This document shows positions 1 to 14,424 of a DNA stretch of 64,000 nt, in pieces. The position numbers and the translations under genes were made by a program. The notes under the pieces are model-generated. The model saw only the letters and a list, made by a program, of their open reading frames with translations, ran no database searches and was not told where the DNA came from. The stretch is from a bacterium. GTDB lineage: Bacteria > Elusimicrobiota > Elusimicrobia > UBA1565 > UBA9628. The stretch is taken from positions 29,804-93,803 of the forward strand of contig JAJZAK010000005.1 of the NCBI GenBank assembly GCA_021799485.1, given 5' to 3'. Numbering within the stretch: the stretch's first letter is position 1; every line of letters begins with the position of its first letter.

Positions 1-796
1 CTTCGATGACGCCCTGGCCCATGATGCGGGAATTGATGACCGGAGCCGAGTAAACGACGCCGTCGAGGACGATCGCGAGGTTTTTGCCGATGTTGGCGCC
101 CGTCAAGGCGGCGAAGGCCGCGGCCGCGTCGGGCTTGAATTTAAAGGCGACGTCGGGCTCGCCATAGCGGCCCATCTCGACGTGGGCGTCGTCGAGGTTC
201 GCGCCGGTCAGCGGCGATTTCGCGCCGACGAGATAGAGGCTTCCGCCGCGGCCCTTCAAAAGCATGTCTCCCGCCGGGACGAGCTTGGCCGCCTTGGCCG
301 TGAGCTGGCTGGTCTTGCCGACGAAAGGGTCCCCCAACTCGCCGATTTTGCCGAGGGCCTTCTGGGCCGCGTCCGAGGAGTCGACCATCTTGAACTCGAG
401 GAGCGCGGTCTTGCCGACGATGTCCTTGGCCTCCTGGGTGTTGGTGACGCCCGGAAGCTCGACGACGATCCACCGATCGCCCTGCCGGGCGATGAGAGGC
501 TCGGAGACGCCGAACTGGTCCACGCGGTTCCGGATGATCTCGATGGCCCTGCCGATGGCGTCCGAGACGTCCGCGTTCAAGGGGAGCTTCGTGATGTCGA
601 GCTCCATGAGGAGATAGGTTCCGCCCTTGAGGTCGAGGCCCAGGTTGAGGAGATGGCGTGGACGCAGGCGGTAAGCCTCGAGCTTGGCGCGCTCGTCAGG
701 GCTCTTGGAATACCACTCGACGCTGGGATAGAGGAAATAGACGGAGAGCGCCGCCGCGGCGCCGATCAGCGCCCACTTGAGCTTGATGTTCCTCAT
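1..796 (-). CDS. secD: Protein translocase subunit SecD (partial, C-terminus cut by window edge)
   Basis: SecD and SecF form the membrane complex that uses the proton-motive force to pull secreted proteins through SecYEG. The visible 265 residues show an N-terminal membrane helix (about residues 7-24), the SecD signature GLDLKGG (53-59) and the RNRVDQFGV motif near residue 90. A periplasmic P1 domain follows and runs to the window edge. The ATG at 796-794 lies one base after the yajC stop, which is the usual yajC-secD order. The remaining membrane domain and secF should lie just outside the window. Family assignment is firm; the gene is incomplete only because the window ends. Confidence 0.93.
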   Translation of the reverse strand, partial: MRNIKLKWALIGAAAALSVYFLYPSVEWYSKSPDERAKLEAYRLRPRHLLNLGLDLKGGTYLLMELDITKLPLNADVSDAIGRAIEIIRNRVDQFGVSEPLIARQGDRWIVVELPGVTNTQEAKDIVGKTALLEFKMVDSSDAAQKALGKIGELGDPFVGKTSQLTAKAAKLVPAGDMLLKGRGGSLYLVGAKSPLTGANLDDAHVEMGRYGEPDVAFKFKPDAAAAFAALTGANIGKNLAIVLDGVVYSAPVINSRIMGQGVIE

Positions 797-797
797 C

Positions 798-1160
798 TCA
801 CGAGGAGGGGGCGGCGTCTTTGCCGGCGCCTTCGGATGGCCCGGAGACGGCCGGAGGCAGCGCCGCGGAGACGGCGCTGCGCGCCAAGGTCAGCTTCACG
901 TTCTCCGCGAAGCGGACCTCCAGGTCGTTGCCCTTCATGCCGGTGATCGTCCCATAGAGCCCGCCCGACGTCAGGATGCGGTCTCCCTTCTTGAGGCCCG
1001 CCAGCATCTTCTCCCGCTCCTTGGCTTGCTTTTGCTGCGGCCGAAAGAGCAGCCAATAGAAAATCACGAGAACCGCGAAGAAGGGGAACAGGCCGGCCAA
1101 CGGGCTCGCCTGGGGGCGGGCCGTCTTGGCTGGAGTCGGCGCCTGCGCGGCTCCGTTCAT
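798..1160 (-). CDS. yajC: Preprotein translocase subunit YajC
   Basis: YajC is a small single-span accessory subunit of the SecDF-YajC complex. The 120-residue product has one membrane helix (about 22-40) ending in the typical FRPQQKQ junction. A cytoplasmic domain follows with the family motif KKGDRILTSGGLYG, then an Ala/Pro-rich tail. Its ATG overlaps the hppA stop codon by four bases (ATGA), and secD begins one base after its own stop. The three genes are therefore very probably co-transcribed. Confidence 0.95.
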   Translation of the reverse strand: MNGAAQAPTPAKTARPQASPLAGLFPFFAVLVIFYWLLFRPQQKQAKEREKMLAGLKKGDRILTSGGLYGTITGMKGNDLEVRFAENVKLTLARSAVSAALPPAVSGPSEGAGKDAAPSS

Positions 1161-3304
1161 AGGAAGAGGGGCGCCAACACGAGGGTGATCGTGGACAGAA
1201 GCTTGATCAGAACGTGGAGGGAGGGGCCGACCGTGTCCTTGAAGGGGTCTCCCACCGTGTCGCCGACGACCGCGGCCTTATGGGCCTCGGAGCCTTTGCC
1301 GCCGTGGGCTCCGGTCTCGATGTACTTCTTCGCATTGTCCCAGGCGCCGCCCGTGTTGTTGAGGACGAGGGCGAGCAGGATGCCGGCGATGGTGCCCACC
1401 ATGAGCATGCCCGCGACCGACTCCGCGGCGAGAGTCGGATCCTGGGGCTTGATGAAAACGCGGAAAAGAAGGCCGAGCAGCACGGGGCCGGCCACGGCGA
1501 CCAGTCCCGGCGCGACCATGGCCTTGAGAGCTCCCAGCGTGACGATGTCGACGCATTGCCCGTAGTCGGGGGTCTCCGTGCCCTTCATGATGCCGGGTTT
1601 TTCCCGGAATTGCCGGCGAACCTCGCTGATGACGGCCTGAGCCGCGCGGCCGACGGCGCGCATCGCGAGCGCCGAGAAAAGAAAGACGATCATCGCGCCC
1701 AGGATCGCGCCGATGAAGACCTCGGGTTTGGCGAGGTTGACGCCCATGATTTTCCCCGAGGTGCGGGCGACTTCGTCGAGATAGGCCGAAAACAAGAGAA
1801 AGGCCGCGAGGGCCGCGGAGCCGATCGCGTAGCCCTTCGTGAGCGCTTTCGTCGAGTTGCCGGCGGAGTCGAGACGGTCGGTCTTGCGGCGGATGGAGGG
1901 GTCCTGCTTGGACATCTCCACGATGCCGCCCGCGTTGTCGGTGATGGGGCCGAACGTGTCCATCGCAAGGATGTAGGGCGCGGTTCCCAGCATGCCCATG
2001 GTCGCGACCGCGATGCCGAAGAGGCCGCTGACGGGCTCTCCGTGGAGGGCGGCGCTGCCCAGGTGATAAGCGGCGTAAATCGCGGCCGAGATGACGAGGA
2101 CGGGGAGCGCGGTGCATTCAAGCCCCACCGACATGCCGGTGATGATGTCGGTGGCGGCGCCCGTTTCGCAGGACTCGGCAATCGAGAGGACGGGGCGATA
2201 GGCGTAGGCGGTGTAATACTGGGTGATGTAGACGAAGGCCTCGGCCGTGAGGAGGCCGATGAGGCCGCAGAAGGCGAAATAAATCCAGGCGCCGGAAACA
2301 AGCTTGGAGTCGAGGAGCCACCAGGAGGAAAGGAGGAAGCCGCCGGCCGATAGAATCGTCGCCGCGTGGTAGCCGCGGTTCAAGGCCTTGAGGGGGTCGC
2401 CCTCTTCTTCGGCCTTGACGACGAAGAGGCCCAGAATGGAGCTAACGAGGCCGAAGGCGCCGTTGACGAGGGGGAAAATCATGCCTTTCCAGCCGAAATG
2501 AGGCATCAGCGAGACCCCGAGGATCATGGCGCCGATGTTCTCGGCGGAGGTGGACTCGAAGATGTCGGCGCCGCGGCCGGCGCAGTCCCCGACGTTGTCG
2601 CCGACCAGGTCCGCGATGACGGCGGGGTTGCGAGGATCATCCTCGGGAATGCCCGCCTCGACTTTTCCCACGAGGTCCGCGCCGACATCCGCGGCCTTGG
2701 TGTAGATGCCGCCTCCCAGCTGGGCGAAGAGGGCGACGAAGGAGGCCCCGAAGCCGAAGCCGACGATGATGAACGGGATGCGGCTGAAGTCGTAGCCCGT
2801 CTTCAGGAGGACGGCCACGAGGCCCCCGATCCCCAGGATGGAGAGCGCGGAGACGAAGATTCCCGTGACGGCCCCGCCCCGCAGGGCGACTTGAACGGCT
2901 TTGTCGATCGACGAGCGGACGGCGCTGGCGGTCCGGATGTTGGAATGGATCGAGGTCAGCATCCCGATATAGCCCGCGGCGACGGAGCAGGCCGCGCCGA
3001 GGATGAAGGAAAGAGTGGTCCAGGCCGCGGATACGGTCGAGGAATGGTCGCCCGCGTTCTTTCCGGCGAACACGTACAGGAGGGCGAAGATGAGGAGCGC
3101 CGAGAGGGAGGCCAGGGCGACGATGGTCCTGTATTGCCGCCGCATGAAGGCCTCCGCCCCGTTTTTGATGGCGTCCGAGATGCGGCGCATTTCGGGCGTG
3201 CCGGTGTCGCACGACAGCACCCATCGCCGCATGGCTTCGCCGACGCCGAGGGCTAGGAGATCGATCGCGAGAACGACGAGAAGCGCCGGGATGAGCCCTG
3301 TCAT
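1157..3304 (-). CDS. hppA: Membrane-bound proton-translocating pyrophosphatase, K+-independent type
   Basis: This enzyme hydrolyses pyrophosphate in the cytoplasm and couples it to ion pumping, normally of protons, across the inner membrane. The 715-residue length and many hydrophobic spans fit the 16-helix family. The substrate/Mg site motif DVGADLVGKVE lies at 206-216, the acidic motif DDPRNPAVIADLVGDNVGD at 222-240, and the second acidic motif DTVGDPFKDTVG near the C-terminus. Lys486 in GNSTKALTKG is the diagnostic lysine that replaces bound K+ in K+-independent enzymes. I chose the ATG at 3304 because an extension to 3421 adds 39 polar residues and runs through a promoter-like sequence. 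It leads the yajC-secD operon, divergent from the purS-like gene. Confidence 0.95.
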   Translation of the reverse strand: MTGLIPALLVVLAIDLLALGVGEAMRRWVLSCDTGTPEMRRISDAIKNGAEAFMRRQYRTIVALASLSALLIFALLYVFAGKNAGDHSSTVSAAWTTLSFILGAACSVAAGYIGMLTSIHSNIRTASAVRSSIDKAVQVALRGGAVTGIFVSALSILGIGGLVAVLLKTGYDFSRIPFIIVGFGFGASFVALFAQLGGGIYTKAADVGADLVGKVEAGIPEDDPRNPAVIADLVGDNVGDCAGRGADIFESTSAENIGAMILGVSLMPHFGWKGMIFPLVNGAFGLVSSILGLFVVKAEEEGDPLKALNRGYHAATILSAGGFLLSSWWLLDSKLVSGAWIYFAFCGLIGLLTAEAFVYITQYYTAYAYRPVLSIAESCETGAATDIITGMSVGLECTALPVLVISAAIYAAYHLGSAALHGEPVSGLFGIAVATMGMLGTAPYILAMDTFGPITDNAGGIVEMSKQDPSIRRKTDRLDSAGNSTKALTKGYAIGSAALAAFLLFSAYLDEVARTSGKIMGVNLAKPEVFIGAILGAMIVFLFSALAMRAVGRAAQAVISEVRRQFREKPGIMKGTETPDYGQCVDIVTLGALKAMVAPGLVAVAGPVLLGLLFRVFIKPQDPTLAAESVAGMLMVGTIAGILLALVLNNTGGAWDNAKKYIETGAHGGKGSEAHKAAVVGDTVGDPFKDTVGPSLHVLIKLLSTITLVLAPLFL

Positions 3305-3326
3305 TGCCGATTGTTGAAGGCTGGAT

Positions 3327-3355
3327 ATTAAGCCAACTTTTGATATTAACGTCAA
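3327..3355 (-). promoter_or_regulatory. Candidate sigma-70 promoter for hppA-yajC-secD
   Basis: On the minus strand TTGACG (3355-3350) is separated by 17 bases from CTTAAT (3332-3327). A TAATAT overlaps the same place with a longer spacer. The spot lies 23 bases before the chosen hppA ATG. The -35 match is good and the -10 match moderate, so this is a prediction only. Confidence 0.4.
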
Positions 3356-3450
3356 GCTGATCGAAGAGCGACTCGGTAGGAGACGAGCGGAATTTTGTAC
3401 AATATCCTGATGTTTTTCCACTCGCGTCCCGTGCCATCCCCGGCCGCCTG

Positions 3451-3954
3451 ATGGAAATAAAGAAAACGACGTTCCTCGTCGAAACCTATTATAAAGCCGA
3501 GCTTCACGACCCGAAAGGCGCCGAGATCCTCGCGCGTCTGAAATCGTTCGGCGCCCTGAGCGCCAAGGAAGTGCGTTCCGGCTCCCTCTACGAAATCGAA
3601 GGCGGCTTGGCCTCCGAGCAGATAGGGCGGATCGCCTCCGAATTCTTGGCGGACCCGGTCAGCCAGGGCTGGCGCCTGATCCCGGAGCACCCGGCGGGAC
3701 AAGACGGGCTTCGGGACAATTGGCGCGTTGAGGTGTGGCCCAAGGACGGCTTTCGTGAGCGCGCCGGGGCCATCCTGACCGCGGCGCTGCGCCAGGCGGG
3801 ACATCGGACGATCCTGGGCGTGCGGGTCGGGGATGTCTATCGAGTCGCCGCCAATTACCACAAAACTCAAGTTGAAAACGCCTTTCTTCGCGTCCTCGTC
3901 GCTCCACGGACGCATTCCCTCAAGGTGGTGGCCGAAGCGCCATGGCGTCTTTGA
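3451..3954 (+). CDS. purS: Tandem PurS-like protein (FGAM synthase small subunit, duplicated domain)
   Basis: PurS normally is an ~80-residue dimeric subunit that bridges PurL and PurQ in the formylglycinamidine ribonucleotide (FGAM) synthase complex. This 167-residue protein looks like two PurS units in a row. The first begins VETYYKAELHDPKGAEILAR and the second NWRVEVWPKDGFRERAGAIL; each starts with a strand, an alpha helix and a conserved-looking G.VYR or GSLYEIEG strand. Some deltaproteobacterial PurL proteins carry such a tandem at their N-terminus, and here it is a separate gene. It overlaps the PurL-like gene by 13 bases. No Shine-Dalgarno sequence is obvious. The fold call is by pattern and context, without alignment. 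Confidence 0.72.
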   Translation: MEIKKTTFLVETYYKAELHDPKGAEILARLKSFGALSAKEVRSGSLYEIEGGLASEQIGRIASEFLADPVSQGWRLIPEHPAGQDGLRDNWRVEVWPKDGFRERAGAILTAALRQAGHRTILGVRVGDVYRVAANYHKTQVENAFLRVLVAPRTHSLKVVAEAPWRL

Positions 3955-6191
3955 CTCGGCCGCGGGGCCTCGCCGTTCCCCGGGAAGCGCCCCGAAGCAC
4001 GGCGGCGGCGCCGCCCTCCGAGGCGGACCGGGCTCAGTCGAGAACGGAGTCCTTGGCCGCCGAATGGGGGCGTTCGAGCCTTTCTTTGCGCGTCCGGTAC
4101 CAGGAAGGCGGGCGTGTTCGCCAATTCAAGAATCTCTACGAGGAGACCGTCGGCCACGCCTCAAAGCGTCTGAAAGGGGCGTGTATCTGGCCCGCGAACG
4201 GCATCGGCGCTTCCTATCTCGTTTTAGGAAGAGGCGATTGGGCCCTGGGCTCCGGATGCGGCATCGCCGGCGGAGCCTGGGATCTTGAAATGCTTGCCGA
4301 GGCGCAGCGGCGCCTGGCTTTCTCCTTGGGACAGGCGCTCTGTCTCAACCCCTCGGCGGCTCCGATCTTGACCGCCTCGTTTTTTTCGCTGCCCTCGCCC
4401 CAAGGAACCGCGGACTCCGCCGCCAAGATCTTGCATCCCAAATGCCTGGCTCCCCTATTCCTTAGGGAATTCGCCGAGTTTTCGAATCGTTTCGGAGTCC
4501 CGGCGCCCTCCGGGGGCGTTTGCTTCGACGGTTCCGCCGCTCCTGGCGGCGCGGCCGTCATCGTGGAAAGCCTCGCGATGATGCCCGCGAAAGCCGCCAA
4601 GCAGCGCGCGCGGGCCGGGGACGCCGTGGTCCTGATTTCCTCGCGCGGCGGGCCTGGCGGCGCGGCGTTCGACGAGGTGCAGCAGGCCATGGCGCAGGCT
4701 TTCCGCCGAGAGTTTTTCTATCGCGCCGTCGCGCTGGGGGCCGGAGGGTTGGCGGAGGCGGTCTTGGGATTGTCCGCGGGCCGGGGCGTCTCGATCTCCC
4801 TCGAGAAAGCCGCGGCGCCGGACCAGGCGGCGTCGCCGGAGGAATTGTGGCTGTCCAAGCAGGACGGCCTGTTTCTTCTCGCGGCCTCCCGCGGCGCTTG
4901 CCGCGAAATCGAGGGGCTGTTTAAGGAAAGAGGACTCGACGCGCGCGAGATCGGAGCCTTCACGGACACGGGGCGCGTCGACGTTTCATGGAACGAGGTC
5001 GGCTTTGTCCGCCTCGATGAAAAGGAAGCCCTGGCGCCCCGCCGGGCCGATCCCGTGAAAGCCGTATGGATGGGGGCCAAGACGGCGAAACGCTCCCGTT
5101 CCGTCGGCGGGCTTTCGGCAAGCGCCCTCCTGCGCGCCCTCATCGCCGATCTCGGCGTCGCGAGCCGGGAGTGGCTCGTGCGCCAAATGGACGTGGAGTC
5201 TCAAGGCCACACCGTCATCAAGCCTCTGCAGGGACTTCGCCACGACGGCCCGGGAGATGCTTGCGTCTTGTGGCCTCACGGCCTGACCGGCGATTCCGCG
5301 GATCACAGGGCTTTCGCCTTCGGCTGCGGCCTCTCCCAACGCATGCTCGCGCTCGATCCCGCTCTCGCGGCGGCCTTCGCCTGCGACGAGGCGCTCAGAA
5401 ACGTCGTCTGCGTCGGAGGCGACGCGGCCAGGGCCGGCTTTTGGGCGCGCGCGGCATGGCCCGAATGGAGGGAGGGAGAAGAGCTGGGCGCGGTCGCGCG
5501 CTGGCTGCAGGGTCTCGGAACGGCGGTCGCGGGTTATGGAGTGCCCGTCGTGGCCCATCAAAGCCGGTTTGGAGGACGAGCCTCTTTTTTCACGGTCTCG
5601 GCGGCGGCGCCCTTGGCGGACATGCGCAAGGCCGTGACGCTCGACATCAAAGGACCGGGCAACCCGGTCTATCTCGTGGGATTGACGGGGGAGGAGCTCG
5701 CGGGCTCGCTCTATGCGGCGCTATGGGAACTGCCGGGAGACGGCTTCCCGAAGATCGCCCCGCGTCAGGCGATGGCGGCTTTCAAGGCCGTCGCGCGCGC
5801 CATCTCCTCGGGCCTCGTGCTGTCGGCGCACGATCTCGCGGACGGCGGGCTCGCGGTCGCCGCGGCGCAGATGGGATTTTCGGGGGAGTTCGGGCTGCAT
5901 CTCGACCTGGATCTCCTGCCGCGCCACTCGGGAGCCATCGACGACTTGAAGCTCCTCGTCGCCGAGACGCCGAGCCGGATCCTTCTCGAGGTGCGGCCCG
6001 AGAAGGAGAGGGACGTCGCCCGGATTCTGCGCGGGTTGCCGGCCCGCCGCATCGGGGAGACGATCGCCAATCCTATCCTGAAGATCAAGGGCTTGGACGG
6101 CTCGGTGCTTCTTGAGGAATCCCTTTCCCAGTTGAAGGCTCTCTGGCAGGCGGCCCTGCCGGAGGCTCTCGGCATTCCCGCAAGGTCATGA
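3942..6191 (+). CDS. purL: PurL-like FGAM synthase subunit with degenerate N-terminal catalytic half
   Basis: PurL converts FGAR to FGAM in purine synthesis using ATP and ammonia supplied by PurQ. The 749-residue length and order of blocks fit small PurL: FGVP.. (about 185), EELWLSKQDG, and a better kept second half with SAHDLADGGLAVA (about 628) and LLVAETPSRILLEV. The region that should hold the ATP/FGAR-binding SHNHP-type motif instead reads ALGSGCGIAGG (101-111). The usual WSEHC and QDMGAAGL blocks read EETVGHASK and VALGAGGL. The frame is open throughout and overlaps both neighbours, so it is not simple decay. It may be a very divergent enzyme or a repurposed pseudo-enzyme. Confidence 0.8.
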   Translation: MASLTRPRGLAVPREAPRSTAAAPPSEADRAQSRTESLAAEWGRSSLSLRVRYQEGGRVRQFKNLYEETVGHASKRLKGACIWPANGIGASYLVLGRGDWALGSGCGIAGGAWDLEMLAEAQRRLAFSLGQALCLNPSAAPILTASFFSLPSPQGTADSAAKILHPKCLAPLFLREFAEFSNRFGVPAPSGGVCFDGSAAPGGAAVIVESLAMMPAKAAKQRARAGDAVVLISSRGGPGGAAFDEVQQAMAQAFRREFFYRAVALGAGGLAEAVLGLSAGRGVSISLEKAAAPDQAASPEELWLSKQDGLFLLAASRGACREIEGLFKERGLDAREIGAFTDTGRVDVSWNEVGFVRLDEKEALAPRRADPVKAVWMGAKTAKRSRSVGGLSASALLRALIADLGVASREWLVRQMDVESQGHTVIKPLQGLRHDGPGDACVLWPHGLTGDSADHRAFAFGCGLSQRMLALDPALAAAFACDEALRNVVCVGGDAARAGFWARAAWPEWREGEELGAVARWLQGLGTAVAGYGVPVVAHQSRFGGRASFFTVSAAAPLADMRKAVTLDIKGPGNPVYLVGLTGEELAGSLYAALWELPGDGFPKIAPRQAMAAFKAVARAISSGLVLSAHDLADGGLAVAAAQMGFSGEFGLHLDLDLLPRHSGAIDDLKLLVAETPSRILLEVRPEKERDVARILRGLPARRIGETIANPILKIKGLDGSVLLEESLSQLKALWQAALPEALGIPARS

Positions 6192-6967
6192 GAACCCCCA
6201 AGATCCTTCTCCTGACGGCGCCCGGGCTTTACGGCGCCCGGGACTACTGGCCGCTGCTGCGCCATTTGGGAGCTTCTCCCCAGTCCGTCGCGCTCGACGA
6301 TCTCCGCGCCGGCAAGGCGAAGCTGATGTCCTTCGCGGGGCTCGTGATCCCCGGGGGCTCGTCTTACGAGGACGTCGTGGGGGCGGGGCAGATTCTCGGG
6401 GGACTGATGCGCTTCTGGGTCGAGGAATTGCGCCGCTTCATCGCGTACGGACGCGCCGTGCTCGCCGTGGGAAACGGCTTCCAGGCCCTGGTCAAATGCG
6501 GAATCCTTCCGGCCTTTTCCTCCGCGGCGCCGACGGCCGGTTTCGCGCCGAACGATTCGGGGCGCTTCGAGGCGCGCTGGGTGCACGTTCGGCTTAATAC
6601 CCAGAGCCACAGCCCCTTCTTCGAGGGGCTCCCGGAGATGATGGAGCTCCCCGTCTTTCACCGCGAGGGAAAGATCATTTTGAAGTCTCCTAAGCACCTG
6701 GAAGAGATCAAGAAGAACAAATCCATCGCGATGCAGTACGTTTCCGACGACGGCAAGCTCGCGGGCTATCCCGCCAACCCGAACGGCTCCATCTTCAATC
6801 TTGCCGCGCTCTCCAATCCCCAGGGAAACTGCTTGGGCCTCATGCCCCATCCCGAGCGCTTCACGAGCGTGTACCACCATCCGAATTGGACCAGGCAGAC
6901 TTTCCGCAAGCCCAACGTCGGCCTGGAGCTCGTTCGCAAAGTCGTCGAATACGCCGCAAGGGCGTAA
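6188..6967 (+). CDS. purQ: PurQ-like glutamine amidotransferase lacking the nucleophile cysteine
   Basis: PurQ is the class I glutaminase that feeds ammonia to PurL. This 259-residue protein has the family framework: PGGSSYEDV (55-63), a nucleophile-elbow region VLAVGNGFQ (91-99), YPANPNGSI (194-202) and GLMPHPERF (218-225). In active PurQ the elbow reads CNGFQ; here residue 95 is Gly, encoded GGA at 6470-6472. His221 and Glu223 of the triad are present. The N-terminal strand that usually reads GxNCxxE is also changed. The start codon overlaps the PurL-like stop by four bases. It probably cannot hydrolyse glutamine by the standard mechanism, which is an inference from the missing residue. Confidence 0.82.
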   Translation: MRTPKILLLTAPGLYGARDYWPLLRHLGASPQSVALDDLRAGKAKLMSFAGLVIPGGSSYEDVVGAGQILGGLMRFWVEELRRFIAYGRAVLAVGNGFQALVKCGILPAFSSAAPTAGFAPNDSGRFEARWVHVRLNTQSHSPFFEGLPEMMELPVFHREGKIILKSPKHLEEIKKNKSIAMQYVSDDGKLAGYPANPNGSIFNLAALSNPQGNCLGLMPHPERFTSVYHHPNWTRQTFRKPNVGLELVRKVVEYAARA

Positions 6968-6971
6968 TACT

Positions 6972-8522
6972 TCAGGGGGCCGGCGGCGCCGGCGCGGCGT
7001 AGAGAGGAAGGATGACGGAGAACTTCGTGCCCCGTCCAGGTTCGCTTTCGACCAGGAGTTCTCCTCCGTGAGCCATCACGATGTTGCGCGAGATCGGCAG
7101 GCCCAGCCCCGTCCCCGTTGTCTTGGTGGTGAAGAAAGGCGTGAAAATCTTTTCGCGGATATCCGCCGGGATGCCCGGGCCGGAGTCGATGACGTGGATC
7201 GCGGCCTCGCCATGCCGCGCCTCCGTGCGGATTTTAAGCGTCCCGGCTCCCTGGAGGGCCTGAAAGGCGTTTGAGACCAAGTTCCAGAGAACCTGGCGCA
7301 TGAGGTCCTGGTCGAATGGAATAAGGGGGAGATCCGCGGCCAAGTCTTCCTCGATAAGAGTTCGCCCCGCGAGGCCGACGTCCGCCTTCGCCGCCGCGAG
7401 CACGTCGCGCGCGACCGCGTTGAGGTCGCCCGCCTGCATCCGAGGCTCCCGCGGGCGACCCAGCTGAAGAAAGTCGGACAAGGTTCGGTTGAGCCGCTCG
7501 CTTTCGTTGAGCAGGATGGAGGAGACCTGGGCGCGGTCGGAGGCGGGGAGATCCTCCCTCGCGATGGCCCTCGCGGCCATGAGGATGGCGTTGAGGGGAT
7601 TTCTGATTTCGTGCGCGACCACGGTGACCATCTCTCCGATCGCGGAAAGAACACGGCTGTCCGCGAGCCTTTTTTGCATGGCGCGCCTTTCGGTGACGTC
7701 CTGGACCACGCCCAGCATCCGCACGACTTTGTCGCGGTGGTCGCGGATGATCTCCGCCGTATAGCGGACGTAGCGCAGCGCTCCGTCGGCCCGTCGCAAG
7801 CGGAATTCGAGGTCGAAGGGGAGGCCGTCGCGGTAGGTTTGGTCCGACACGGCATTGAAAAGATCGCGGTCTTCCGGCACGATGAAGCGCTCGACGAATT
7901 CCTTCTGGGACGGAGGGGGCGAGCCCGGCTCGACCCCCGCGATGCGGCGCATCTCGTCGGACCATCGGTCCCTGGCGGGATCGAGGAAATCTCGAACGAT
8001 GGCGCCCAGGCGCGCGAGTTCCTGGGCGCGCCGCAGCGTCACCTCGCTGTCTCTCAAGGCCTCCTCCACCGACTTTCTGGCGGAGATGTCGATCACCGAA
8101 GCGATCACGAAGAGGCCGTCCCGAGTGCGAACCGGGTTGAGGCCGACTTCGACCGGGAATTCGCTTCCGTTTTTGCGCAGGCCGAAGAGATCCCGGCCGC
8201 TCCCCGTGGCCCGCGCCGTCGGAGCCCTCATATAGTCGTCGCGCATGCCCGCGTGGCCTCGGCGGTAGCGCTTGGGGATGAGGCTTTCGATCTTTCGGCC
8301 GCGCATCTCGCGCTTTGAATAGCCGAAAAGATTTTCGGCCAGCGCGTTCGCAAGGACGATGCGTCCGTCCGAGTCCGTCATGATGACGCCGGTGGGCGCC
8401 GAGTCGACGCAAATTCGGGTCAGATCGGCTTTCGTGCGCAGCGACGGGGATAGGCGAAGAGGCCTTTTTCTCGAGGGGCGGGGCTTCTTGCGGAGGGGTT
8501 GGGCGGAGAGACGGGACGGCAT
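6972..8522 (-). CDS. Soluble PAS-domain sensor histidine kinase
   Basis: A 516-residue histidine kinase without any membrane helix, so probably cytoplasmic. After a basic N-terminus come two PAS domains (about 35-150 and 160-282), the second ending in the PAC-like DVTERR segment. The HisKA box [11 protein letters not shown] follows with the phospho-acceptor His304. The ATPase domain shows an N box near 405, DSGPGIP near 433 and GTGLGLPI near 458. The layout resembles NtrB-like kinases. No response regulator lies beside it; the nearest, at 22825, is far away. It converges with purQ, four bases apart. The ligand sensed by the PAS domains cannot be read from the sequence. Confidence 0.92.
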
Positions 8523-8575
8523 GAGGATTTATTGTATCACGGGCCGGATTGGCGGGTCCTTTAGATAGAAGTCGT

Positions 8576-9247
8576 TCAGAAGTAGTTTAAGTACCGGCCT
8601 TCGTATTCGTCGAAAAGCCCGTATTCCCGCAGCTTCTCTCCCAAGCGCTTGAGAACGCCGCGGTCGGCCTCCGCGTCGGCGAAGAGCGCCTCGATCTCGC
8701 GTCGGCGTCGGTCCTCGGCGTGCCGGGCTGGATCGAACAGCCCGCGGCGCCCCAGGTCCCGCATGTGGGTGGGAAACGAGCGAGCCGCCTCGTCGATCGT
8801 CAGCTTCATGAGAGCCAGCGTCCACGCGCCGTCCGGGCAAAGAACCAGGGCCTTCTTTTCGTTGCCTTCGCCCTCCCATGATTTGGCGAGACGGCTCGCG
8901 AGAGCCTCCGAGTTTTCCGAGAGAACGTTCGATCGCATGTCCTGGTTTTTGAAGACGTACTGCAAGGCCCTGAGGGCGTCTCCATAGTTCGATCTCAGGA
9001 AATCAAGGAACGGCGCCGCCTCCGGCCCGAAGCCCTGGAAGCGCTCTTTTAAGGCGTCGGCCGTCAGGATTTTGGGGCGTTCCGAGAGGACCTTGCCCGA
9101 GCGAAGCCTCGTCTTGTCCGCGAGTTGGTCGACGGGAGAAAGAAGATGGTATTCGATCTCGGTCGAGCCGAAGGTCGCGAGGATATGCTTGGGCTGCCTC
9201 AGCACCGAGGTCTTGGCCAATAAAGATTGAATGGTCTTGGGGTCCAT
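8576..9247 (-). CDS. Conserved-looking hypothetical protein, 223 aa
   Basis: I do not recognise this protein. It has no signal peptide or membrane helix and is rich in charged residues. An N-terminal stretch contains FGSTEIEYHLLSPVDQL and a basic RLRSGKVLSERPKIL segment that looks like a conserved core. The C-terminal half is helical and charged, ending in a Tyr-rich GLFDEYEGRYLNYF. A purine-rich sequence precedes the ATG. It lies downstream of ahcY on the same strand with a 59-base gap containing a small dyad (CAATC/GATTG). Base composition matches the neighbours, so it is probably a real chromosomal gene. Confidence 0.7.
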   Translation of the reverse strand: MDPKTIQSLLAKTSVLRQPKHILATFGSTEIEYHLLSPVDQLADKTRLRSGKVLSERPKILTADALKERFQGFGPEAAPFLDFLRSNYGDALRALQYVFKNQDMRSNVLSENSEALASRLAKSWEGEGNEKKALVLCPDGAWTLALMKLTIDEAARSFPTHMRDLGRRGLFDPARHAEDRRRREIEALFADAEADRGVLKRLGEKLREYGLFDEYEGRYLNYF

Positions 9248-9306
9248 GGGAGGGCCTCTAAACTAGGCAATCCATAGATTGGTTAGTCTTCCGGATCTTT
9301 CGCGGC

Positions 9307-10644
9307 TCAGTACCGGTAATAATCCGGCTTGTAAGGCCCTTCCTGGGGAATGCCCAGGTATTCGGCCTGCTTGGATGTGAGCTTGGTCAAGTTCGCCCCG
9401 AGCCGGCCCAAATGCAGGCGAGCCACTTTCTCGTCGAGGGCCTTGGGGAGCATATAGACGTCCTTCTTGTATTTCCCGCCGCCCTTATTCTTCCACAGTT
9501 CGATCTGGGCTAGGACCTGATTCGTGAAGGAGGCGCTCATGACGAAGCTCGGATGCCCTTGTCCGCAGCCCAAGTTGACGAGACGGCCCTCCGCCAGCAC
9601 GATCAGCACTTTGCCGTCGGGCCAAATGTAATGGTCCACCTGCGGCTTGATCGTCTCGCGCGTCAGCTTCTTGTCGCTATTAAGGGAGGCGATATCGATT
9701 TCGATGTCGAAGTGCCCGATATTGCAGACGACGGCATGGCTCTTCATGCGGTCCATGTGGGACTTCGTGATCACGTCGCGGCAGCCGGTGGCCGTGACGA
9801 AAAGGTCGCCGACGGGAGCCGCCTGGTCCATCGTCACGACTTGGAAGCCCTCCATCGCGGCCTGGAGCGCGGTGATGGGGTCGATCTCCGTGATGAGGAC
9901 GCGCGCGCCGAGTCCCTTGAAGGCCTGGGCGCAGCCCTTGCCCACGTCGCCGTAGCCGCAGACGACGGCGGTCTTGCCCGCGATCATGATGTCGGTCGCG
10001 CGCTTGATCCCGTCCACGAGGGATTCGCGGCAGCCGTAGAGGTTGTCGAATTTGGATTTCGTGCAGGAGTCGTTCACGTTGATCGCGGGCGCGCCCAGCG
10101 TGCGCTGCTGCGCGCGCCGAGCCAGGCGGTGAACGCCGGTCGTCGTCTCCTCCGTGATCCCGCCCAGGCCGTCGAGGTATTCCGGGTATTTTTCATGAAC
10201 CATCTCGGTGAGGTCTCCGCCGTCGTCGAGGATCATGTTGAGGGGCTTGCCGTCGGGCCAGCGGAGCGTCTGCTCGATCGCCCAATCGAATTCCTGGGTG
10301 CTCATGCCTTTCCAGGCGAAGACCGGGATGCCCCGCGCCGCGACGGCGGCGGCGGCGTGGTCCTGCGTCGAGAAGATGTTGCAGGAGCTCCATCGCACCG
10401 TCGCGCCCAGCTCGGTCAGGGTCTCAATGAGGACGGCCGTCTCGATCGTCATGTGGAGGCAGCCCGCGATCCGGGCGCCGTCCAAGGGGCGCTTGCCGCG
10501 GAATTCCTCCCGAAGAGCCATGAGCCCCGGCATCTCGGACTCGGCCACCTCGATTTCCTTGCGGCCCCAGTCGGCGAGGCTCAAATCCTTGACTTTGAAA
10601 TCACGCGCGGGGCCGGCCTTCGTCTTCGCGGCGGCTGTGGTCAT
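9307..10644 (-). CDS. ahcY: Adenosylhomocysteinase
   Basis: The enzyme reversibly splits S-adenosylhomocysteine into adenosine and homocysteine, clearing the product inhibitor of methyltransferases. The 445-residue protein shows the substrate/NAD region [19 protein letters not shown], the Rossmann motif [11 protein letters not shown], and the typical C-terminal KPDYYRY whose Lys-Tyr pair closes the NAD site of the partner subunit. All hallmark segments are intact and the length is normal for the bacterial family without the plant/mycobacterial insert. A strong AAGGAGGA ribosome site and a TATAAT box precede it. Confidence 0.97.
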
Positions 10645-10647
10645 GAA

Positions 10648-10691
10648 TCCTCCTTTAAATAAAATTGAGCGGCGGAAAGCGTAGTATTATA
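10648..10691 (-). promoter_or_regulatory. ahcY promoter -10 box and strong ribosome binding site
   Basis: On the minus strand a perfect TATAAT (10691-10686) lies about 40 bases before the ahcY ATG, and AAGGAGGA (10655-10648) is four bases before it. No good -35 element is visible at the expected distance. I saw no SAH or SAM riboswitch fold in the short leader. Confidence 0.5.
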
Positions 10692-10751
10692 CTTTTTGCG
10701 GCGCGAGATTCTTTCGCCGCGCGGCCGCCGGGGCCGGCGATGGGTGGCGAC

Positions 10752-11774
10752 TTAATCGGCGGGACTTGCGACGGGACTTGATGGCTGCGGCTCCGGCGCG
10801 GGTTTTGCCTTTTTTACCAGCGCGCAAAGAGCGGGATTGCGGCTTGACATGCATGCTTGATACATCAGGAGATATTGACGTTTGGTCAGCGGAAGTCCGG
10901 GGGCCGCGGCTTGCGGCGGGGGTGTTTCCAGGGTCGCGGCGGCCTGCCACTCGGCGATTTTATCCTTGAGTTTTCGGGCGTTAGGATCGTCGGGGCGGAG
11001 CGCCAGGTATCGCTGCATGTATTTTCCCGCGGCGGGATAGTTCTTTAATTTCCCCAAGACCAAGGAGAGATCGTAGTAAGGCTCCGACCACCAGGGCGCG
11101 GCCTCGATCGCCTTTTCAAAATAGGCCGCCGCGCGGTTGAAATGCTCGTGCTCGATCATGTAGCGGGCCTGGACCGAGGCCGTATGGGCGTTCTCCGGGA
11201 TGTCCTTGGGCGCGCGCCCGGAGCGGACCATTCCGACGATTTCTTGGAAGCGCTCCGCGGCTTTTTTCTCTTGTTCCTTTAGCTCCTTTCGCGAGCGAGC
11301 CCGCTTCTCCGCCAGCCATCCCAGGACCTCGTTTCGGGCGGCGGCGTTATAAACTATGCCGTATGGATTGGCGCCGTGCTCAAGCAAAATCCTCGCGATG
11401 GCCGCGTCATGGCTGCATGCCAGAGGGGTGAGCTTGGAAAGGAGGGGATCGTTGTTTATGGTGCCCAGCATAATGGGGCACATGAAGATGCCGATTCCGG
11501 GCAATCCAAGAACTGGGAACAGAGGCGAGCAGATAGGCATTTCACAGGCATTAACCCTGAAAAAAGACATGGCGGCTGGTCCGGACTGGTTGGGATCGGC
11601 CCCCGCGGCCAGGAGAGACTGGACCTCCCGGACGTTTCCCTCGGCGGACGCCCGGATGAGAGGGGTGCTGCATCCCGAGAACGCGGCGAGGGGGATCGTC
11701 CATGCCAGAATAAGCCGTTTCACCGCGGAGGTCTCCGCGCTTTGGGTTTTTGAATCCATGAGAATTTCTTTCAT
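10752..11774 (-). CDS. Ankyrin/TPR lipoprotein
   Basis: A 340-residue exported protein. The N-terminus has a basic stretch, a hydrophobic segment and a lipobox-like AAFSGC, suggesting a lipid-anchored periplasmic protein. Two ankyrin-like units follow: TPLIRASAEGNVREVQSLLA, and LTPLACSHDAAIARILLEHG after an irregular hydrophobic insert. A charged coiled-coil-like region comes next, then a TPR-like pair around AAAYFEKAIEAAPWWSEPYYDLS (about 220-280). The C-terminus is Pro/Ala-rich. Its ATG directly follows the stop of a 44-codon ORF, and the ankyrin-caspase gene lies just upstream, so the three form an operon. The role is unknown; protein-protein binding is the family expectation. Confidence 0.75.
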   Translation of the reverse strand: MKEILMDSKTQSAETSAVKRLILAWTIPLAAFSGCSTPLIRASAEGNVREVQSLLAAGADPNQSGPAAMSFFRVNACEMPICSPLFPVLGLPGIGIFMCPIMLGTINNDPLLSKLTPLACSHDAAIARILLEHGANPYGIVYNAAARNEVLGWLAEKRARSRKELKEQEKKAAERFQEIVGMVRSGRAPKDIPENAHTASVQARYMIEHEHFNRAAAYFEKAIEAAPWWSEPYYDLSLVLGKLKNYPAAGKYMQRYLALRPDDPNARKLKDKIAEWQAAATLETPPPQAAAPGLPLTKRQYLLMYQACMSSRNPALCALVKKAKPAPEPQPSSPVASPAD

Positions 11775-11909
11775 TTAATCGCCGCCTCTTTGAAGGGAGT
11801 CCTCGGCCTCCCAGCCGACGTCCGCGCGGCCGCCCTCCACGGCGTCCATCAGGGCCGTCGCCGCCGGCCTCGCGATTTTCCAGGGGTTCTTGCCATCGGG
11901 CATGATCAT
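11775..11909 (-). CDS. Small ORF (44 aa), possible ankyrin remnant
   Basis: This short frame begins at ATG 11909 behind AAAAGGAGA and ends in TAA immediately before the ATG of the ankyrin/TPR lipoprotein. Its middle, TALMDAVEGGRADV, looks like the first helix of an ankyrin repeat. It may be the leftover start of an ankyrin gene, or a small translated coupler in the operon. There is no membrane segment. Reality as a protein is uncertain; the good ribosome site and exact stop-start junction are the main support. Confidence 0.4.
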   Translation of the reverse strand: MIMPDGKNPWKIARPAATALMDAVEGGRADVGWEAEDSLQRGGD

Positions 11910-11934
11910 GCTCTCCTTTTTATAAATCGATCAA

Positions 11935-14424
11935 TCAGCGCAGGCCGATGTCGGCGCCCTCGAGGACGGGGTCCTGGATGTCGTTCTGCCTGCGCGCGGC
12001 CTTCTCCACTCGCGGCTTGATGAAATCGTAGAGATTCCGGACGCGGCGCGGCTTTAAATTCAGGCCCTTCAGAAAATAGTAGGTCAACAGGCCGTGCCCG
12101 TGGACTTTTGAAACGGCGGCGATCTCCGTCCCCTTGGCCGCGGCCAACGCGGCCATGCGCGGCCCCAAGGGGACGCCCCCGATCCTCGTGACGACGAGGG
12201 GGCGAACTCCCTTGGCCATGACCGAGCGGGCTCCGGCGCCCGAAAAGCAGGCGTCCATGACGACGAGCGTGCGTTCGGCATGAAGGCGGGCCAGATCCGC
12301 GTAGAGCCTGTCGACGGGAAAGCCCTGGTCGCGGATGAACTCGGGAACGGCGTCCCACGGCACGAGATAGGCCGAGCGGGAGCGCGGGTCGGGCGCGCCG
12401 TGGCCCGAAAAGTAGAAATAGACGCGGGACTTCGATCCGACGTTCTTAGGCAGATAGTCCTCGAGGTAGCTGCTCAAGCCGCTGAGCGTAGCGGCCGAAT
12501 CCAAGAGGGAAATGATGTTGCCGCCGGGGACCCCGAGGGCGGCGAAATATCTCCCGGCGGCCTCGGCGTCCCTTTTGGCGAAATCGGCCCGGGGCAGGCT
12601 TCGGTAGGATTCGATCCCGACCACGAGGGCCCAGTCGTTAGGACGGCGAGGGTATCTGAAGGCAGGGCTGTCCATGTCCGAGATCGGAAGGCTTGGAGGC
12701 GGGGCCTCGGCCTTGGCGGTTTCCGAGCTTTCGAGGATTCCGACGATCTCGGGGCGCGACGGTGTTTCACGGGCGAGGTCCAAAGCCGTGAGTCCGTCAT
12801 CGTCCCTAAGGCTCTCGTCGGCCCCGGCCGCAAGCAGGAGCCTCGCCAATTGGGCCGAGCCGGCCATGATCGCGTAGTCGAGGGCCGTCATGCCGACCTG
12901 ATCTTGGATATTGACGCCGGCGCCGAGGGCCAGAAGCCGCCGTGCCGCTCCGGTCCGCCGGCCCGCGGCCGCGTACATGAGCGGCGTGCGCCCCTTGTGG
13001 TCGGTCAAGTCGACTCGAGCGCCCGCGGCCACGAGGGCCGAGGCGGCGGCCGGCTGGTTCGCGTAAGCCGCCGCCATGAGCGGCGTGACCCCTCCGGCGC
13101 CGGCTTGATTGGGGTCTTGCCCCTGGCGGAGGAGCTCCGCGATTTGGGCCGCGCTGCCGCTCCGCGCGGCCTGATAGATCGGGCCGCGCGGGAGGATAAA
13201 CTTGAGCGCGCGGCGGCCCGGATGTCCCCGGACGGAAGGCGCGGCCGCCGGCTGGGGAGTCGGACGAGAGACCGCCGAGTCGGGGGAGGCGGTCGTCTGC
13301 CAACTGAAGGCCGGGGAATCCTCGGCACCCGAGCCGGAAGGCGCCGCGCTTGGGGCGTCGCCGACCTCCGGGCCGCCCATCTCGGCCAGGAGTTCGTCGG
13401 AGGCCTTCTTTTTCCGGCGGCGCTCCCTCGATGCGGCGGCCTTGGCCTCGTCGTTTTGAATCTCCGCCAGATCGCCTCGGCAGTCCGCGAGAGAGCGCTG
13501 CGCCTCTTGGATTTGCCGCGCCAGGTCTCCGCCGGGAACGGAGGGACCCTTCGCGGCCAGCGCGCTCAGGCGCTGGTCCAAGAGGGAGCGCGCCGAGGAC
13601 CCGCTCTTCGCGCGATGGCAGGGCAAGGGCCGGCAGGCCCACCCGCCGGAGAGGGCCTGGGCGGGCCGGCCGTAGAGGCCGCAAAATGGCTTTTGGTCGG
13701 CGCCTTCGATATCGAGCGCAAGCCGGCTCCAGTCGCTCGCGGTATAAAGGCAGGCGGTCCGGCCGCCGCGGAGCCGGACCCGGACGGTGTTCGATTCGCA
13801 GAGGCAGGCGCGCCCCTTGGGGCAAATCAAGGCTTCCGGAGCCGCCGAACCCGGGCAGGATCGACCGTTGGAGTCGACATAGCCGCCGGAGAGATCGGGC
13901 CTATCCGATCTGCCGGGTTTCTTGCCGAGTTCCGCCAGAAGATCGTCTCGAATCGAGGCTTTCCGCCGCGCCCGCTCCTCGTCCGCTTTCTCCGCGGCGT
14001 TCATGGCGCGGATCCGATCGCGGCAAGCGGCGTCCATGGTCTGGAATTTTTGGAGGGCCTGACGCATCTGCTCAAGGGCTTTTTGCCGCGCCGCTTCGGC
14101 GGCTTCCTGGCTTTGGCTCCGGCCCCCGCCGAAAAGAAGCTCGCCGATGTCCTGGCCGAGTTGGTAGCCTAACTGCGAAGCCCCTTGCATAAGGAGGCCT
14201 TGCATGGCATTGCGGGGATTGTAGGCTCCGCCGAATGACGAGCCGCCCCCCGCCGACCCGTAGCCGCAATGGCTCGCGCAGTCGGTTCCCGGAGGCTGGT
14301 TAACGCCGCCGGGATCGCAGGCGCAGTGGACTGAGACCAAGCTCTGGGCTTGGGACGGCGAAGCGCGAAAAACCAAGCATGCGCCCGCCGCTAGTAGGGA
14401 AACCGTTCGGAGATCCCGCCCCAT
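11935..14424 (-). CDS. Secreted ankyrin-repeat caspase-family (C14) protease
   Basis: An 829-residue protein with a probable signal peptide (LLAAGACLVFRASPSQAQ, cleaved near 27). A Cys-rich, Glu/Ala-rich helical region covers roughly 30-330 and a Pro-rich linker follows. Four ankyrin repeats lie at about 415-560, with cores TPLMAAAYAN, TPLMYAAAG and TALDYAIMAG. The C-terminal caspase fold (595-829) starts WALVVGIESY and carries both catalytic residues: His675 in YFSGHG and Cys726 in DACFSG. Caspase-like proteases of this type cleave proteins, often after activation by partners. Periplasmic or surface location is inferred from the signal peptide. An ankyrin lipoprotein lies downstream and could be a partner or regulator. 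Confidence 0.85.
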   Translation of the reverse strand: MGRDLRTVSLLAAGACLVFRASPSQAQSLVSVHCACDPGGVNQPPGTDCASHCGYGSAGGGSSFGGAYNPRNAMQGLLMQGASQLGYQLGQDIGELLFGGGRSQSQEAAEAARQKALEQMRQALQKFQTMDAACRDRIRAMNAAEKADEERARRKASIRDDLLAELGKKPGRSDRPDLSGGYVDSNGRSCPGSAAPEALICPKGRACLCESNTVRVRLRGGRTACLYTASDWSRLALDIEGADQKPFCGLYGRPAQALSGGWACRPLPCHRAKSGSSARSLLDQRLSALAAKGPSVPGGDLARQIQEAQRSLADCRGDLAEIQNDEAKAAASRERRRKKKASDELLAEMGGPEVGDAPSAAPSGSGAEDSPAFSWQTTASPDSAVSRPTPQPAAAPSVRGHPGRRALKFILPRGPIYQAARSGSAAQIAELLRQGQDPNQAGAGGVTPLMAAAYANQPAAASALVAAGARVDLTDHKGRTPLMYAAAGRRTGAARRLLALGAGVNIQDQVGMTALDYAIMAGSAQLARLLLAAGADESLRDDDGLTALDLARETPSRPEIVGILESSETAKAEAPPPSLPISDMDSPAFRYPRRPNDWALVVGIESYRSLPRADFAKRDAEAAGRYFAALGVPGGNIISLLDSAATLSGLSSYLEDYLPKNVGSKSRVYFYFSGHGAPDPRSRSAYLVPWDAVPEFIRDQGFPVDRLYADLARLHAERTLVVMDACFSGAGARSVMAKGVRPLVVTRIGGVPLGPRMAALAAAKGTEIAAVSKVHGHGLLTYYFLKGLNLKPRRVRNLYDFIKPRVEKAARRQNDIQDPVLEGADIGLR

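Follow-up and report, generated by a model that had tools for sequence, protein, structure and literature searches.

The three-subunit formylglycinamidine ribonucleotide (FGAM) synthase of Bacillus subtilis and Thermotoga maritima (structure 3d54) is a PurS2-PurL-PurQ complex, and a 64,000-nucleotide stretch of DNA from an Elusimicrobiota bacterium (contig JAJZAK010000005.1, positions 29,804 to 93,803; hereafter the window) encodes the same subunits in its purS, purL, and purQ genes, with the same folds and the same residues at the auxiliary adenosine diphosphate (ADP) site. It differs from that enzyme in lacking the PurQ nucleophile and the PurL catalytic motifs, in lying in a genome where the rest of the purine pathway was not found, and in scoring below the NCBIfam cut-offs. 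On balance, we narrowly favor the reading that purSLQ is an intact set resembling FGAM synthase but without the catalytic residues, that it persists under purifying selection in a genome where the pathway was not found, and that it probably serves as a non-catalytic scaffold or sensor, predicted to hold ADP or adenosine triphosphate (ATP) in the auxiliary site of PurL domain 2.

FGAM synthase homologues with another use are known from viruses: the vGAT proteins (ORF75) of gamma-herpesviruses lack the glutaminase triad (PMC6213852). Like vGAT, the set in the window is an FGAM synthase pseudoenzyme, and its PurL matches the tegument model TIGR01739, below the cut-off (67 bits against 716.1). However, vGAT is viral and recruits a host enzyme, whereas the window encodes separate bacterial subunits, no other FGAM synthase was found in its genome, and its PurQ has lost only the Cys. 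The set is a pseudo-amidotransferase in that it is an FGAM synthase homologue without the glutaminase nucleophile and is kept by selection; we do not claim membership of the viral family. What is already known is thus the FGAM synthase pseudoenzyme of herpesviruses, and what is new is one that is bacterial, three-subunit, and pathway-less; among the literature matches listed, taken at the level of titles and abstract openings and with subscription papers mostly outside the scope, there is no description of a bacterial three-subunit pseudo-FGAM synthase without the pathway. PurL has also been proposed from structures as the scaffold of a bacterial purine metabolon, and later interaction mapping in E. 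coli is reported to have given no data for a PurL scaffold (PMC10912719). That proposal concerns an active PurL with its pathway partners, whereas PurF, PurD, PurM, and PurC were not found in the window's genome.

Nearer relatives are the canonical copies within the same order (genomes G054, G049, G033, and others), which have 53–63% PurQ identity, a long PurS, and the S-L-Q gene order seen in the window. These keep the Cys of PurQ together with SEHC, ETHNHP, and SGKDS, which we take to be catalytic motifs of PurL, and the G054 set, unlike that of the window, sits in a pur operon. In Salmonella PurL the active site is in domain 1, and domain 2 holds an ADP site of unknown function with Asp679 near the ADP phosphate (PMC3815217). 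The corresponding features of the window are as follows.

3451..3954, + strand: purS, encoding a PurS-like protein of the long form, 167 amino acids, with two PurS-domain stretches in a single chain (PF02700 match and alignment)
3942..6191, + strand: purL, encoding a PurL-like pseudo-FGAM synthetase of 749 amino acids, overlapping purS by 13 bases, with the PurL fold kept in the model
3942..5093, + strand: PurL domain 1 (residues 1–384), the catalytic half in known PurL, with SEHC and ETHNHP lost (alignment)
5094..6188, + strand: PurL domain 2 (residues 385–749), the half with the auxiliary ADP site in known PurL (alignment)
5256..5258, + strand: PurL Asp439, aligned with Salmonella PurL Asp679 (ADP-phosphate contact)
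5388..5402, + strand: PurL Glu483 and Asn487 (DEALRN), aligned with Glu718 and Asn722, presumed metal ligands
5829..5834, + strand: PurL His630-Asp631 (HDxxDGG), the Asp aligned with Asp884, a presumed auxiliary-site residue
6188..6967, + strand: purQ, encoding a PurQ-like pseudo-glutaminase of 259 amino acids, overlapping purL by 4 bases (homology and model)
6470..6472, + strand: the codon for PurQ Gly95, where the nucleophile Cys is expected (alignment)

An earlier note on this DNA described three intact genes overlapping by 13 and 4 bases, and the coordinates and open frames agree; no internal stop occurs in purS, purL, or purQ, and all are on the + strand. The source is G000, a draft assembly whose 61 contigs total 2.31 Mb, at 90.1% completeness. 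None of the three products reaches the curated cut-off of any NCBIfam model that it matches. PurS matches PF02700 at 46.5 bits, in two stretches, and NCBIfam models at 37.5 (cut-off 122) and 34.5 bits (cut-off 75); PurL matches TIGR01736 at 174.6 bits (curated cut-off 525.75), with the best PurL-model stretches beginning only at residues 249 and 261, the latter for TIGR01736; and PurQ matches PF13507 at 191.9 bits, TIGR01737 at 138 (cut-off 177.8), and PRK01175 at 181.5 (cut-off 298). The predicted structure of PurL (predicted local distance difference test, pLDDT, 83.6) has Thermus PurL (3viu) as its top PDB match, with a template modeling (TM) score of 0.75, and the structures nearest to the PurQ model (pLDDT 85.3) are the glutaminase part of FGAM synthetases. 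PurL and PurQ thus belong with FGAM synthase by homology and fold and fall outside it by curated score.

The earlier note had also held that both catalytic partners miss hallmark residues, and this is borne out. Residue 95 of PurQ is a Gly (VLAVGNGFQ) where intact relatives have CNGFQ, and the Cys alone of the triad is lost, with His221 and Glu223 kept. Alignment shows that the window's PurL is without SEHC, ETHNHP, DCGAGG, and SGKDS, as are those of G041 and G040, which are closely related to it. The two domains are unequally affected: among columns conserved to at least 95% across 42 PurLs taken to be intact (166 columns fall in domain 1 and 120 in domain 2), the window's PurL keeps 51 and 77 respectively (Fisher p = 2e-8). 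The corresponding fractions are 52/166 and 76/120 in G041, 47/166 and 79/120 in G040, 134/166 and 115/120 in G055, 88/166 and 97/120 in G050, and 134/166 and 114/120 and 81/166 and 100/120 in the metagenome PurLs P0123 and P0124, which also lack SEHC, ETHNHP, and SGKDS; Fisher p values run from 3.5e-4 to 1.4e-9 in the five of these seven PurLs that were tested. The four 'control' rows of this count are not independent, because the columns were defined from a set of 42 sequences to which they belong.

Within domain 2, an alignment of 28 PurLs, five of them motif-less (that of the window and four more), shows no variation at Asp439, Glu483, Asn487, or His630 and at least 90% conservation of Asp631. 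We take Glu718 and Asn722 (Salmonella PurL numbering) to be metal ligands of the auxiliary site and Asp884 to be a further residue of it. On this alignment the acidic and amide residues of the auxiliary ADP site (Asp439, Glu483, Asn487, and Asp631) are kept in the window's PurL, which is a putative ADP binder and resembles a PurL that has lost most of its catalytic half but not its ADP site. In PurQ, the C-terminal half retains 65–74 of 74 conserved columns in 14 Cys-less sequences, and the nucleophile replacements in these are all small (seven Gly, five Ser, and two Ala).

We searched for the pathway families in 56 genomes of the order, among them five that are central here: those of the window's genus (G000, G040, and G041) and two (G050 and G055) from another genus, which also holds canonical members. 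In none of these five drafts, which are 62–93% complete, were PurM, PurD, PurC, or an above-cut-off PurH found; PurF was likewise not found (the best matches score about 100 bits, over half the model), and IMP (inosine monophosphate) dehydrogenase (IMPDH) gave weak matches only. Above-cut-off matches among the 56 number 43 for PurF, 45 for PurM, 46 for PurD, 44 for PurC, 39 for PurH, and 23 for IMPDH, of which a shorter form is widespread in these genomes. At an expect value of 1e-40, PurF is missing from nine of the 56, namely the same five plus G002, G020, G028, and G052 (70–79% complete); in G028, part of a PurF gene stands at the edge of a contig (locus L076). Full-length hypoxanthine phosphoribosyltransferase (HPRT), a salvage enzyme, is present in G000, G041, G050, and G055, and was not found in G040 (62% complete). 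From these inventories, the five organisms are likely to be purine auxotrophs with salvage. Weak matches to the ATP/ADP translocase family PF03219, a marker of nucleotide import, occur in 32 of the 56 genomes (19–58 bits) and are uninformative.

Nor was a second set found in the window's genome, where a search with AIRS_C returned only the window's PurL (two stretches) and one other protein, and PurQ gave one match only. The other AIRS_C protein was rejected as a canonical FGAM synthase, as it is ThiL-like (TIGR01379, 183.2 bits, cut-off 184.15). The earlier note had proposed such an inventory as a check, with absence of a second purL and purQ pointing to an unusual enzyme; the lack of a second set is not evidence for one, because the enzymes that make and use the substrate were also not found. 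The same note's suggestion of a regulator of purine synthesis is unlikely because purine synthesis appears to be absent, while its broader proposal of repurposing rather than random decay is supported by the failure to find the pathway around the set, by purifying selection within the genus, and by the same combination in a second genus.

Two further purine proteins of the order deserve mention. A second, lower-scoring PurH-like protein accompanies canonical PurH in most genomes of the order (some, such as G033 and G048, have the canonical copy only), and the five purine-less genomes carry the lower-scoring form alone (in G000 on contig C50 at 149326-150864, locus L143; in G050, L144). The pattern KHxNP, which we take to be that of AICAR (aminoimidazole carboxamide ribonucleotide) transformylase, is absent from the PurH-like proteins of G000 (L143), G050 (L144), and G054 (L145). 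This protein is perhaps a second pseudo-purine enzyme, or an enzyme tied to the AICAR that arises from histidine synthesis. In G054, an IMPDH-like gene of a short, divergent form (L066:3334-4497) lies within the canonical pur operon; in many genomes of the order this form accompanies a full-scoring IMPDH encoded elsewhere.

The Cys-less, motif-less state is not confined to the window. The PurQs of G041 (L061) and G040 (L062) are 98% and 89% identical to that of the window and carry the same Gly. We aligned 151 PurQs, comprising that of the window, 47 loci (L061-L107; 48–98% identity), and, from P0002-P0116, every PurQ of 240 or more amino acids that did not duplicate an earlier row; the column of residue 95 holds a Cys in 137 and another residue in 14. 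Five of the 48 genome-derived PurQs lack the Cys (the window, L061, L062, L069 of G055, and L070 of G050), and the PurLs of these same five genomes are without SEHC, ETHNHP, and SGKDS and keep DEALRN and HDxxxGG. Neither PurF nor PurD is in the flanks of L061, L062, L069, or L070; L062 ends 76 bases past purQ, and it is therefore the genome-wide searches that count for G040. The other loci that lack a PurL motif (L063, L068, L072, and L090) are cut by a contig end, and five loci without PurF in the flank (L078, L081, L084, L085, and L086) have the PurQ Cys and a PurF elsewhere in the genome. In several canonical loci the short PurQ pattern matched another motif (GGFS), and their Cys was taken from the alignment; the HD pattern used had no match in four canonical loci. 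P0124 and the Cys-less PurQ P0041 may be neighbors, since the longest contigs of both are 4294. A PurQ tree of all columns gives five changes at the nucleophile and one with the catalytic columns dropped gives eight, both trees being quick ones with many weak forks; because well-supported branches of the latter force only two changes, we put forward two lineages, one being the window's genus and the other G050 with G055, and there may be more.

Comparison with the gene order of G054 indicates what was lost around the set. The G054 genes run DUF362, IMPDH-like, guaA (guanosine monophosphate synthase), purC, purS, purL, purQ, purF, purD, purE, and, further on, a molybdopterin (MoCo) dehydrogenase gene, and in G055 it is DUF362, purS, purL, purQ, and the MoCo dehydrogenase gene, so that relative to the G054 order the flanking genes on both sides are gone and purSLQ has stayed. 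In G050 one small gene separates purQ from the molybdopterin dehydrogenase gene.

Selection appears to have persisted after the loss. The window's genus shares the loss, and its members therefore, by parsimony, diverged afterwards. Between the window and G041 or G040 respectively, the ratio of nonsynonymous to synonymous substitution rates (dN/dS) is 0.036 and 0.062 for PurQ (0.021 and 0.022 in the C-terminal half, 0.064 and 0.135 in the N-terminal half), 0.159 and 0.153 for PurL, and 0.206 and 0.100 for PurS; among neighbors, it is 0.117 and 0.109 for the proton-translocating pyrophosphatase and 0.110 for AhcY (G041 only). PurQ is the most constrained of eight genes compared with G041 and of four compared with G040, and all frames are open at a synonymous divergence (dS) from G040 of about 1.0–1.6. 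We note that nine canonical pairs give 0.008–0.107 for PurQ and 0.046–0.240 for PurL, several canonical PurS values being unusable through wrong frame or saturation (identities 0.26–0.37) and, in one pair, too few codons; the window's genus lies within the range of presumably working enzymes. In a neutral simulation with substitution only, none of 300 runs kept the three frames open at any of four distances (0.13 to 1.0), and about 15 stops accumulated in the three genes at a distance of 0.26. Chance or sequencing error is an unlikely source of the lost residues, because the genus relatives share the Gly and simulated frames never stay open. These are not pseudogenes with broken frames or a dN/dS near 1, and even in the pair G055-G050, where the values are raised, they are below 0.5.

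How such a set might act can be put together from what was spared and what was lost. PurS, PurL, and PurQ would still assemble, with ADP or ATP bound in the auxiliary site of PurL domain 2, and occupancy of that site would set the shape of the complex and hence its contact with some partner. The spared parts (the C-terminal half of PurQ, much of domain 2 with the ADP-site residues, and the fold) would be those needed for assembly around a nucleotide, and the lost ones (the nucleophile and the synthetase motifs) those needed to form FGAM. Because all 14 nucleophile replacements are small, fitting a need to keep the shape of the pocket, a Gly, Ser, or Ala there might allow PurQ to bind glutamine without hydrolysis, making glutamine a possible second input. 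The non-catalytic role would already have been present before the pathway was lost, which would account for the survival of purSLQ alone as the flanking genes went; the set may instead have taken up a new job, and either course would fit the sequences. More tentatively, and with rather less than even confidence, we propose that a second, non-catalytic job of FGAM synthase in this Elusimicrobiota family outlived purine synthesis more than once, with purSLQ alone staying, shedding both active sites, and keeping the ADP site as a free-standing nucleotide-reading hub.

Several observations weigh against the scaffold or sensor reading. The auxiliary-site residues are equally conserved in presumably active PurLs, and their retention alone therefore shows no new role; folding or mutual binding alone could also explain why domain 2 and the PurQ C-terminal half were retained. 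Nor is the split between domains a clean one: by the boundary used, domain 2 also takes in two elements that the Cys-less lineages have lost, SGKDS and the Asp of LDNFCW, and the 77 columns that the window keeps there are just part of the 120. Single pathway genes drop out of other good drafts (G016, 92% complete, is without PurD), and the key drafts are only 62–93% complete. The neighboring genes differ between the two genera except for ahcY, some kilobases downstream, and none points to a partner. The pair G055-G050 has dN/dS values of 0.264 for PurQ, 0.381 for PurL, and 0.408 for PurS, against 0.101, 0.161, and 0.298 in a canonical pair of that genus, which fits relaxed constraint in the second lineage; part of this divergence may predate the loss, and in both genomes the frames are open and 73–74 of the 74 PurQ C-half columns are kept. 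Finally, in a survey of 340 genomes of the phylum (expect value at most 1e-40), PurQ was matched in 217 and PurF in 218, and 107 of the 122 purF-less genomes have no PurQ match, although the survey could miss a large single-chain PurL or a distant PurQ. Because the other purF-less genomes are mostly without PurQ, a retained role is known only from the family of the window's genus and G050/G055. PurQ occurs without PurF in 15 genomes, the five discussed here and G028, G052, G137, G187, G231, G248, G278, G286, G296, and G300, with a very weak PurQ match in G137 and low completeness in several of the 15. Those outside the order, such as G187, G231, and G300, may hold further cases, and are known by presence only.

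Among other explanations, the one that survives best, though we consider it unlikely, is that PurL domain 1 and PurQ have been remodeled into a different active site, so that the complex now acts on a new substrate, whether in salvage or in some other pathway. Domain 1 is far from its canonical relatives yet constrained within the window's genus (dN/dS of the PurL N-terminal half 0.182 to G041 and 0.169 to G040), and the fold is kept. However, the lineages have replaced the hallmark residues differently, with no new common motif apparent by eye, the glutaminase nucleophile has gone as well, and domain 1 is the less conserved half. Somewhat less likely again is slow decay, in which the three genes have been useless since the pathway was lost and are intact only because that loss is recent. 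The several ways in which catalytic residues have been lost, the raised dN/dS of G055-G050, and the position of purSLQ at the place of the old operon would all fit decay, and for the G050/G055 lineage it is a fair rival. It is a poor one for the window's genus, in which PurQ has a dN/dS as low as 0.062 and every frame is open at the synonymous distance of G040, far from the roughly 15 stops of the simulation; moreover, the flanking pur genes are gone where these three stay, and most purF-less genomes of the phylum have no PurQ match at all.

The earlier note's alternative of an unusual FGAM synthase fed by free ammonia draws on this PurL and PurQ being the only ones found in the genome, and is very improbable, as the synthetase motifs of PurL are lost besides the glutaminase nucleophile, leaving no intact synthetase site, and, with PurF, PurD, PurM, PurC, and above-cut-off PurH not found, there is no visible way of making or using the substrate. 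Equally improbable is an incomplete or chimeric draft as the source of the missing genes and odd residues: all five genomes are drafts, four of them metagenome-assembled genomes (MAGs), and the purSLQ contig of G040 (62% complete) is only 5.5 kb, yet separate drafts in two genera agree, the contigs of the window, G050, and G055 are 93.8, 142, and 73.9 kb, and the PurQ of G041, 98% identical, has the same Gly.

Natural sets that lack catalysis and retain the auxiliary ADP site make both the purpose of that site and the question of a PurL scaffold testable, and if purSLQ is indeed a nucleotide-reading hub, these organisms would isolate the long-unexplained purpose of the PurL ADP site. They also illustrate that an annotation of purL and purQ as present does not mean that purines are made.

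The PurS of the window is a long form with two PurS-domain stretches, as though the usual PurS dimer had been fused, and is long in relatives of the order too, with alignments within the order spanning about residues 6–165. A gene for a proton-translocating pyrophosphatase (1157-3421) lies on the opposite strand with its start 29 bases from purS, and as the two are divergent they may share a control region; the gene adjoining purS in G050 and G055 is a different one. An Rfam search at gathering thresholds found no RNA element in positions 1-12000 of the window, and a scan of 3300-7100 found no promoter; 11 terminator-like matches in the latter interval (4.2 expected) were set aside, as all lie inside genes. 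Farther downstream, positions 11935-14424 of the window encode what is, by eye, an ankyrin-repeat-like protein with a caspase-like C-terminal part, and in the G050 locus a Peptidase_C14 protein is encoded upstream of purS (L070:5749-7011).

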